A DNA stretch of 64,000 nucleotides from assembly GCA_951799425.1 (NCBI GenBank), contig OX637394.1, positions 49,665,142-49,729,141 of the forward strand. Reading direction: 5' to 3'. Positions 15,441 to 21,060 of this stretch are shown one piece after another. This DNA is from Ilex aquifolium (taxonomy: Eukaryota; Streptophyta; Magnoliopsida; Aquifoliales; Aquifoliaceae). How positions within the stretch are numbered: the stretch's first letter is position 1; each line of letters starts with the position of its first letter. Both the position numbers and the translations under genes were made by a program. The notes beneath the pieces are model-generated. The model was given only the letters and a program-made list of their open reading frames with translations, had not been told where the DNA came from and searched no databases.

Positions 15441-15499
15441 AAACCTATTTAAATTTAAGAATAGTCATAAAAATGATTATGTTAAAATATGGAAGAGAT

Positions 15500-16120
15500 A
15501 AAATTCTCTGATATTGAAATAAATTGCAGAACTGGGATATACCCAGTACCCTACTAAGAAAATTTATAATATTGGCACTTTTGATTTTAAATCGAGTTTA
15601 ACAATTGAAACGATTGAAATGACTATTCCTTTTGATCAAAATGGAGATATTTTACAATTTTTAACTGATAGAGAAGTCTTAGGCTCAAGAAAATTATAAT
15701 TTTTTACATATCGTATTAGTTCAAGTTGCTTTAAAACATTTAACTCTTAAAGGATGTAATGCCTCTTTTATATTAGCATTAAGAGATGCTAGGTGTCTTG
15801 ATTTTGATCAATCTTTAATGGGTGTTATGCAATCCAGATTAAACACTGGTCCTGTATATTTTAACTGTTTTTCAGATCTATCTGTATCTTTAACTGATAA
15901 AAATATTTTAGATGTTTTAACATGTAATATTAAAACTTATGGCTATAATTATAAAGATGGAACCGACATAATGATTTTTACCTACAGGGTATATTCTAAG
16001 ATTATGAATATAGTCTTTGTCCAGAAACTAAACTTCATAATTTTAAAGGACAAACAACTTTAATTGAAACAAATATGATTAAAAATAAAATTGAAGTCCC
16101 TAAGACTATTAAGTAGTCAG
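15500..16120 (+). pseudogene. Viral movement protein region (broken)
   Basis: Fragments in more than one frame match the 30K-type movement protein of pararetroviruses. A segment near 15775-15800 reads ALRDARCLDFDQSL, and one near 15845 reads TGPVYFNCFSDLSVSL. A one-base shift lies near 15700, another near 15990, and an in-frame stop near 16115. In a live virus this protein moves virions or nucleic acid between cells. The copy cannot make a full product. Confidence 0.75.
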
Positions 16121-16146
16121 AAATCCAATTTCCATAAACTTGACAA

Positions 16147-18756
16147 TTGGAATCTGTGGTTCCTAAGAAACCAGAAATAAATAAAGAAATAACTCATATT
16201 GCCCAATCATCAGAAGGAGATGTATTGATTAAATTTGGTAGAAATAATTTTTCAAGTTTAAAAATCTCTGATAAATCAGAAACTTCATCAGTTTATTATA
16301 CTCCTACTAGAAAATCTACTTCTTCGGTCCCAAATCGCAGAAGAGAAAAAGAACCCATAATTGAAGGTATAAAAACCTCTCGTAATCAAATTCCACATGG
16401 AATTTACAGACAAGATAAAGAAACTTTTAATGAATCTTCTCTAGAGGAAGATATTGATCCAACTCCATCCGAAATCGGATTCCAACTATAGTCTTTATGG
16501 ATTCATACCAAAAAGAATTTGTTGTTAATAGAAAAGAAATTAGTGCAGAATTTAATCTTCCTAAATATGAAGAATTTAGAAATTGGTATTTTAAAACCAT
16601 GAGTCCAGAAGAACTTCAAAACTATAAAGAAATGTTTTACCTTTATATAGAAAGGGAAAAAAGAATAATTCATTTTGTTAAATGGTTTTTAACTTATTAT
16701 GCTCCACCCATTATGGATCATTTAAATGTAATTGAAAATTTTCAACATAAATGAGAAACATTGGATGGTAAAACTATAAATAGTTTTTATCTACCAACTA
16801 CTGAAGCTATAAAATTAAATTTAAAAGACTTTGAAGAAGTTGTTATGAATGCATGCTATTCAGGAACAAATATTGCTATAAGACAAAATAATTATACAAA
16901 TGTTTGCTTACAGGTTGTAGGACAACATTTGACTCAAATTGAAAATTTGATAAAAGACCAATTCAAAGCTTCGTCTTCCAAGACTTTAAAAGAAGAATTT
17001 AATGAACTTGAACAAGTTAATATAAAACCCACAGTGGATACTTCCTCGTTCAATCTTCATAATAAAGTTGAAGTTGAGTTCATAAATGCACTCAAAAATA
17101 AATTACAAGGTTTGTCATTAAATGTAATTTCTCAAACAGCGAGTGTGGAGCAATCTGAAACTGAAATCCAATAGTTTGAAGATTCTTTACATCAAATGCA
17201 GCCTGAAGAAATAAATAAAATTGAGTTTTCTAAACCTAAAAAACAAACTAATATATATTCACAAGCACCTCGTATGAAGGCTTATTATCATAGATCAACC
17301 CCTCAAGATATTTTATATGAAGAAACTTTTTCATTGATCAACAGTCTTATGATGCCTCTTCTATTTATGAATGGAATATTGATGGCATATCAGAATATTT
17401 AATTCATCAAGTTTTACATAAAATTTTAATGTATGCTTCGGTTGTAGAGCCAATCGAAATTTTGATCATGCTACTGCTAAATTTATCACTGCATGATTTA
17501 CTGGTCAATTAAGAGGCTGGTGGGATAACTATTTAAGTCCAACCCAGCAAAATGAAATCCTAAATGCAGTAAAAATAATAACAGCTGAAGATGGGAGTAT
17601 AAGTACTCAAGAAGATGATGTTTATACATTAATACAAACCATACTAAAACACTTTGTTGGATCAAGTTTCCAAAGTACTGATAAAAGTAAAGAACTCTTA
17701 ATGAATTTAAGATGTCCTACCTCACATTTTAGGTAGTATAAAGATGTATTTTTGGCAAAAGTTTTGCTAAGACCAGATGCTAACAATGAATTTTAGAAAG
17801 AAAAATTTATATCATGATTGCCTAGTTTATTTGCTGAAAAAATCAGAATTCGATTAAGACATGGAGGAGTTAAAATTTCTTATGAAAATTATACTTATGG
17901 AAAATTAATTTCTGAATGTATTTCAGAAGGTTTAGCCATTTGTAATAATTTAAATCTTAAAGCTCAACTTAAAAAACAAAAGTTAACTGGTCGTAAAAAA
18001 CTTGGAGAATTTTGTGACCAATTTGCTTATCATCTTGATATACCCAAAGAAACATCTACAAAAAGAAAGTCTTATCCTAAGTTTTTCAAAAGAAAAAAAA
18101 AATTCCATAAAAGGAATTATGATAGGGACAAAAGCAAACTCACTAACTCCACTAAAAAAATTAAAGAAAAAGAAAAGAAGTCCATTCTTAAATGTTTTAA
18201 GTGTGGAAAAGAGGAACATATCGCCTCTAAGTGTTTAACTAAACAACAAATTAATGAATTAATTATTGATGAAGATCTTAAAACAAAAATTTTAAAAATC
18301 GTTTTAAATTCAGAAAGTAAAGACTCTTCTAGTAATCTGTTTTCTGAAGAATATAATATTAATGAAATTAGTAATTCATCCTCTGATGAAGACCTAGAAC
18401 AAGAAAAAGCTTGTTCTTCCCATTGTCAAGCACAAAATAATTACTATAAAGTTATTTTAGCTATGAATGAATTAAGTATAAATACTTTGACTAAGTCACA
18501 AAAGTTAATTCTTGATCTTATAAATAAAATTCAAGATCCAAATTCTAAGAGAAAAGCTATTGAACAATATTTGCAAATAAATCTAGAAGACAAGAGACTA
18601 TTAATGTCTCAGTCTTATTCACTAAAAGAAGTCCTTAATAGGACAGAAAGTATGATGATTGATAATTCTCAAATAAAGGAAGTCTCCCCTATTACGGTTC
18701 AAGATCTTAAAAAAGAAATCCACCATTTTAAATATGACATAAAAGTCATAAAGTAG
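16147..18756 (+). pseudogene. Viral coat protein region with CCHC zinc knuckle (broken)
   Basis: A succession of collinear open pieces (16147-16491, 16497-16754, 16761-17174, 17196-17402, 17818-18756) separated by single stops or shifts. The piece at 17503-17535 encodes GQLRGWWDNYL, a strongly conserved coat-protein block in plant endogenous pararetroviruses. The last piece is lysine-rich and carries a complete CX2CX4HX4C knuckle (18193-18234, CFKCGKEEHIASKC), which in this family binds nucleic acid during assembly. After the knuckle comes a Ser/Glu-rich acidic segment, as in other coat precursors. At least six disruptions are visible. Confidence 0.8.
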
Positions 18757-18849
18757 AGACTTTTAGCCTTAGAAAAGTTGTCAATTAAAGAAGACAAGAA
18801 ATAAATAAATTCTTCTACTGAATACTTAAATGTATTGGAAAAAATAACT

Positions 18850-19260
18850 TATCAGAAATAGTATGTTAAAATTATATTAGTAATAAATTCTGAATTTACT
18901 GTTGAAACAATTGTTTTAATTGATAGTGGCGCTGATATGAATTATATAAAAGCAGAATTAATTCCTACAAAATATTTTGAAAAAACTACTCAGTCAGTAA
19001 GTACTGCTGATGGTTCAAAATTAAATATAAACTTTAAACTTTCTAATGTTTATATATGTAATGAAAAAATCTATATTCCTACAACTTTTATGCTTATTGA
19101 TAATTTAAATCAATTAGTAATTTTGAGAACATCATTCTTATCTATGATTGAACTCATAGAAAGAATAGATTCTAAAGGAATTTTGACTACCATAAATGGT
19201 CAACAAATATTATTTGAGTTTATAACTTCACCACAAATAAAAATGATAAATCAACTAAAA
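18850..19260 (+). pseudogene. Viral aspartic protease region
   Basis: The active-site triad context is present as LIDSGADMNYI, with DSGA at 18922-18933. It is followed by beta-strand-like segments and a second hydrophobic block ending VILRTSFLSMI. This is a retropepsin-type domain that would process the viral polyprotein. It follows the coat region after stops at 18754, 18802 and 18859. In known relatives reverse transcriptase comes next; here it does not. Confidence 0.78.
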
Positions 19261-20634: not shown

Positions 20635-20677
20635 TCAGATAAAACTGAGTTTTCGGATAAAGCCGACCCGGAAGAAG

Positions 20678-20864
20678 TGACGTACGCCATGACGTCACTA
20701 TAAAATTATTAAAGTTGTGAATAGTAAAGAGTGTACAGTAGTGTACAGTATTGTTGATGTATGTAATGACGTCAATGTAAATTATTAAAGTTGTGAACAG
20801 TATAAAGTTGTGAATAGTATATGTTAGTTTGAAATCCAGATTTCATGTCTGACTTCTATATAAA
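20678..20864 (+). promoter_or_regulatory. Pararetroviral promoter with as-1-like element and TATA box
   Basis: Two TGACG motifs start at 20678 and 20690, exactly 12 bp apart as in the as-1 element of the CaMV 35S promoter, where TGA-type bZIP factors bind. A third TGACGTCA is at 20767-20774. Repeats of AAAGTTGTGAA(T/C)AGTA lie between and after them. A TATATAAA box at 20857-20864 would set a start near 20890. Confidence 0.8.
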
Positions 20865-21046
20865 GAGGTGCAGGCCCAACCTGTGGAGCACCGCACCTTG
20901 CACAGCACCTTAGAACCTCACCCATTTCTCCTCCTTTCCTTACCCTCTTGCACCCTCTCTGATTCCTCCTCCCTTGTACATTAACCTTCATTTTCTACCT
21001 TCTCCACTACTACTGTAAGTAAAATCTTGTACATATTTTTGTATTA

Positions 21047-21052
21047 AATAAA
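21047..21052 (+). terminator. Viral poly(A) signal
   Basis: AATAAA lies about 160 bp after the predicted start site. That spacing gives the short terminal redundancy known for caulimovirus pregenomic RNA. A T-rich tract follows. Confidence 0.65.
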
Positions 21053-21060
21053 AGCTTTCG

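Follow-up and report, generated by a model that had tools for sequence, protein, structure and literature searches.

RT-less genome components have been described for the putatively bipartite florendoviruses, in which component B encodes a single polyprotein comprising the movement protein, coat protein and aspartic protease (MP-CP-AP) and no reverse transcriptase (RT); among viral retroelements, these fossils are described as the only ones with a bipartite genome, and the RT-less components are nonetheless placed in the family Caulimoviridae (PMC4241990). Here we analyze an element of similar layout in a stretch of 64,000 nucleotides from the genome of Ilex aquifolium (contig OX637394.1, positions 49,665,142 to 49,729,141; hereafter, the window). 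The element is a decayed, integrated copy of a plant pararetrovirus without detectable RT, and we assign a probability of roughly 0.68 to its being an RT-less genome component of a petuvirus/florendovirus-type caulimovirid, of the published component B kind.

The published components are 5.5-6.9 kb long, with intergenic regions that are >90% identical between partners, and component B has been reported for the Vitis vinifera B and D viruses, the Oryza sativa B virus and the Sorghum bicolor virus (PMC4241990). The component B polyprotein ends in an extension homologous to the ORF2 protein (45-58 kDa), a protein of unknown function that in most species is encoded in a frame different from that of open reading frame (ORF) 1 (PMC4241990). 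According to the same source, the N-terminal portion of RNase H1 is missing from component B; a C-terminal remnant would accordingly be expected. A truncated RNase H1 is reported for component B of VvinBV in PMC9719215, where component B of VvinDV is credited with only MP and a zinc finger and such components are called 'highly atypical'; in some members of this group, an RNase H1 remnant may thus escape detection. Additional evidence for bipartite florendoviruses, from sugar beet, is mentioned in PMC10377300; the word 'bipartite' does not occur in the main text of PMC13308828.

Two further groups are relevant for comparison. In the RT-less rice elements eRTBVL2 and ePVCVL, which have been read as non-autonomous viruses with partners, the place of RT and RNase H is taken by the SFKTE domain (522-residue alignment; PMC5491270). 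In monopartite florendoviruses and in Petunia vein clearing virus (Petuvirus), MP-CP-AP belong to one polyprotein, in the same order as in the window, with RT and RNase H encoded behind the protease (PMC4241990); neither of these two domains was found in the Ilex element. Wendovirus (PMC9794742), an endogenous caulimovirid that, like the window element, contains an ORF whose function is unknown, was set aside because it has RT; it also encodes RNase H and two protease domains, and has four ORFs in all.

Organization of the element

The window is plant genomic DNA: among 10 ORFs scanned around the element, five exceed the cut-offs for the families Plant mobile domain, Tmemb_14, DTW, purple acid phosphatase and RRM. 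Pieces of a pararetrovirus polyprotein are found on the plus strand at 15523-20634, and the span of the element, from the first movement protein piece to the AATAAA signal, is about 5.5 kb. A Pfam scan of 10 pieces yielded, on the plus strand, the domain order MP, DUF7588, DUF7746, zf-CCHC and RVP from 5' to 3', which bears out the order of movement, coat and protease regions given in the original prediction; for five of these 10 pieces, no family scored above the cut-off. The succession of a movement protein, a CCHC coat-type region and a retropepsin is a trait of the Caulimoviridae. The features of the polyprotein region are as follows.

15523-15699 and 15683-16063, plus strand: movement protein, divided between two pieces that differ in frame (Pfam MP in the second piece)
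16144-16491, plus strand: open piece between the movement and coat regions (no family above the cut-off)
16458-16754, plus strand: DUF7588 piece (Pfam, 1.7e-15 in 16458-16751)
16755-17174, plus strand: open piece in the same frame as the DUF7588 piece (no family above the cut-off)
17321-17736, plus strand: DUF7746, coat-type region with a frame change inside (Pfam, 5.8e-11 and 4e-9)
17818-18756, plus strand: remaining coat-type region with the CCHC knuckle (Pfam zf-CCHC, 3.7e-4 in 17818-18753)
18862-19264, plus strand: aspartic protease with DSGA (Pfam RVP, 1.4e-4 in 18862-19614; relatives, best E-value 4.4e-35)
19265-20634, plus strand: extension of about 53 kDa that keeps to the protease frame, at the RT-RNase H position (open frame, codon usage, mass)
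19711-19836, plus strand: Tyr-rich YKxAYY-type repeat in the extension (27-nt imperfect tandem repeat)

The match to Pfam MP (8.7e-17 in 15683-16060) extends over positions 70-175 of the 191-position profile; the first movement protein piece (15523-15699) matched no family and was assigned from its position. DUF7746 is divided between two pieces in different frames, 17321-17509 (5.8e-11) and 17497-17733 (4e-9), and the previously noticed GQLRGWWDNYL motif lies within this domain. Because of the gene order and the CCHC knuckle, the DUF7746/CCHC region is likely to represent the coat protein.

The decay of the element is apparent from several frame changes before position 17497 and from stop codons dispersed over the remainder. 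From 17497 to 20634, all sequence up to the final stop, including the protease and the later part of the coat region, is in a single forward frame. The movement protein and first coat pieces lie in frames other than that of the coat, protease and extension, and we infer that these differences come from decay, such that one ancestral ORF would have extended from the movement protein onward.

A search with the protease piece (251 aa) identified four relatives at E<=1 among 196 candidate proteins, one of which carries the name Kalanchoe fedtschenkoi; a comparison of the same piece with solved structures produced no match at E<=1. All four relatives align to the protease: P0004 stops inside it, P0001 stops approximately at the point where the sequences diverge, and P0002 and P0003 continue past this point for 20 and 27 residues, respectively, with tails that resemble each other, are both unlike the window extension, and are too short to reveal an RT. 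P0002 is filed under a Chryseobacterium metagenome-assembled genome and is apparently plant DNA in a bacterial bin.

The two tails bear on the main rival explanation, namely, that a monopartite florendovirus-type provirus, or the integrating DNA, lost RT and RNase H in a one-off deletion that fused the protease to ORF2 in this copy only. The point at which P0002 and P0003 depart from the window sequence could be the site of such a junction. However, such a deletion would need to span about the whole RT-RNase H block while sparing an ORF of about 53 kDa, and, with ORF2 being in a frame different from ORF1 in most species, an in-frame junction would be expected by chance in about one case out of three. 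Overall, we consider a one-off deletion possible but unlikely.

The extension behind the protease

The interval 19265-20634 very probably was, formerly, a coding extension of the protease polyprotein, because it contains few internal stops, differs in this respect from shuffled sequence, and resembles the upstream genes in its codon usage. In the protease frame, there are 4 stops among 456 codons (three internal ones and the final one), with 69 and 25 stops in the other forward frames and 25, 27 and 48 in the reverse frames; the upstream part of the polyprotein (17497-19264), for comparison, has 6 stops among 589 codons, one of them at 18859. Across 1000 dinucleotide-preserving shuffles of the interval, the best forward frame contained 31.9 stops on average (standard deviation 3.6), and in no shuffle did this count drop under 19. 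With five upstream pieces of the element as the training set, the codon-usage score of the extension is 0.247 bits per codon in the protease frame (0.24, 0.22 and 0.27 for its three parts), compared to -0.10 and -0.05 for the other forward frames and at most 0.12 overall for the reverse frames; by part, the reverse frames reach 0.18, 0.16 and 0.18, which is lower, yet not far below the protease frame. In the first two parts of the extension, the G+C content drops from codon position 1 to position 3, as it does in the coat region, and in the last part (20137-20634), G+C at position 3 exceeds that at position 2. The pieces of the extension add up to 53 kDa. The view that the space behind the protease is filled with open sequence, not junk, thus holds; the long open pieces that were originally perceived there turn out to be one collinear frame continuous with the protease.

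Searches with the extension returned no relatives. None of the 10 candidate proteins for 19618-20133 reached E<=1, and none of the 198 candidates for residues 134-251 of the 251-aa piece reached E<=10, in a protein search that requires shared exact 5-residue words and limits the candidate length, so that distant or much longer relatives could escape. The Pfam scans listed no known caulimovirid accessory family in the extension. Weak sub-cut-off Pfam lines, such as Ig_TPPC8_C (0.01), were regarded as chance, and weak matches of a 172-aa extension piece to EDS1 structures (best whole-sequence E-value 0.057; best single stretch 1.6) were attributed to the Tyr/Lys-rich composition. No credible relative emerged from seven viral-contig scans or from a scan of prokaryote genome contigs, in collections that hold no plant genomes, and two apparent hits among the viral contigs (L001 and L002) were dismissed, with only 12 residues aligned at 83%. 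Two structure predictions were poor, with mean predicted local distance difference test (pLDDT) values of 38.6 and 36.4.

These searches are relevant to the alternative that the element represents a distinct lineage, with helper-dependent replication, in which the place of the polymerase (Pol) was taken by a protein unrelated to both ORF2 and SFKTE. The extension indeed has no relatives in the protein searches and no Pfam family above the cut-off, and the rice elements set a precedent for an unknown domain in the RT/RNase H place (PMC5491270). However, given the exact-word and length constraints of the search, a fast-evolving ORF2 protein would escape it as well, and the extension matches ORF2 in place, frame and size. 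We therefore regard a distinct lineage of this kind as improbable; the broader claim that replacement of Pol by a protein unrelated to ORF2 or SFKTE marks yet another independent emergence of a reverse-transcribing virus that lacks RT and is helper-dependent or multipartite appears slightly less so, and is still quite doubtful.

Search for RT and RNase H

The original prediction had reported neither a YxDD-type motif nor an RNase H block after the protease, and the six-frame motif and Pfam scans agree with this. The profile check for decayed RT and RNase H domains that had been envisaged was run: among 28 six-frame pieces (at least 25 aa) overlapping 19265-20634, there was no match to RVT or RNase H families with Pfam at E<=10, a threshold at which the HMMER filters nevertheless discard most matches above about 0.1. 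No [YF]xDD motif is present in any of the six frames of the extension interval. The movement protein and both halves of DUF7746 are still found by the same means, which indicates that decayed domains of this element stay detectable.

It could be argued that an RT is contained in 19265-20634 in a form decayed past recognition, considering the number of stops and frame changes that the element has accumulated through decay. However, the interval has just three internal stops in a continuous open frame of 455 codons, the upstream domains are easily detected, and none of the six frames contains an RT family, an RNase H family or a YxDD motif. A decayed RT in this position thus appears extremely improbable.

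Comparison with florendovirus component B

An RT-less component of a divided or helper-dependent pararetrovirus is the best-fitting reading because the layout agrees with that of the published florendovirus component B. The window element shares with component B the MP-CP-AP order, the missing RT, an extension in the frame of the protease with a mass of 53 kDa, that is, within the ORF2 range of 45-58 kDa, and the presence of promoter-like and poly(A) elements in the intergenic region (PMC4241990). It also resembles eRTBVL2 and ePVCVL, in which MP, CP and protease are followed by an unknown domain that replaces RT and RNase H (PMC5491270). This type of layout has already been described in grape, rice and sorghum, and the Ilex element is most likely a new example of it. 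The earlier suggestion of one component of a bipartite pararetrovirus is plausible inasmuch as layout, frame and size fit component B; the kind of element it proposed was already known.

If the element was an RT-less component, a viral promoter would have driven the synthesis of a pregenomic RNA encoding one polyprotein that includes the movement protein, coat protein, protease and an accessory protein of roughly 53 kDa. RT and RNase H would have been supplied in trans by another virus, either a partner or a helper, which had the regulatory region in common with the RT-less component and made use of the same coat, so that the RNA of the RT-less component could be packed and then reverse-transcribed by these enzymes. 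The extension might have acted in the role of the ORF2 protein, or might correspond to the SFKTE protein of the rice elements.

Several observations weigh against assignment to component B. The similarity of the extension to ORF2 is one of place, frame and size, and the protein searches brought up no relative of the extension that would tie it to ORF2 or SFKTE; the placement among petuviruses and florendoviruses, likewise, is based on the layout. Unlike component B as described, the window element yielded neither an RNase H remnant nor a primer site: none of the 28 six-frame pieces gave a match to a truncated, C-terminal RNase H1, and a search of the element for tRNA-Met primer sites found none below three mismatches. 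Unlike eRTBVL2 and ePVCVL, the element lacks SFKTE, and a degenerate six-frame search recovered only SYKDA, in the protease frame. Finally, only one copy has been seen: a search for a second copy within the 64-kb window gave just four matches of 20-35 nt (best E-value 0.025), and tblastx gave none at E<=0.1.

With regard to the primer site, loose matches to the tRNA-Met primer pattern number 39 in the window, against 39.5 expected by chance. Because no site with fewer than three mismatches was found, the leader end is probably absent from this copy.

A further example of an RT-less component helps to ask how frequently such components originate and what role is played by the protein in the place of Pol. 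As a single copy with an unseen partner, the Ilex element adds one more instance, and does not yet test the bipartite idea itself.

Regulatory end and flanking sequences

Promoter-like elements and a poly(A) signal are recognizable behind the open region, where a promoter and poly(A) signal had been claimed to lie; a possible primer site for the plus strand is located within the extension.

20193-20211, plus strand: run of purines, a weak candidate for the plus-strand primer (36 comparable runs in the window)
20678-20865, plus strand: promoter-like region with TGACG motifs, two TGACGTCA and TATATAAAG (motif search)
21047-21052, plus strand: AATAAA poly(A) signal (motif search)

The two copies of TGACGTCA, at 20690 and 20767, are the only ones in the window, and both are located upstream of TATATAAAG at 20857. 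An arrangement of the TGACGTCA-TATATAAAG-AATAAA type is typical of caulimovirid promoters.

On the opposite side of the element, an (AT)10.5 array occupies 15018-15038, about 0.5 kb ahead of the first movement protein piece; florendovirus insertions have been reported to occur at TA repeats (PMC4241990). The window also contains a tRNA-Met gene on the minus strand (5777-5848). The viral poly(A) signal is followed, after about 0.6 kb, by what is probably a terminal-inverted-repeat element (21684-22848; about 1.2 kb), with 18-nt arms that are 94% complementary. Short tandem repeats that adjoin one another, their units measuring 22-23, 29 and 45 nt, are found at 22492-22654.
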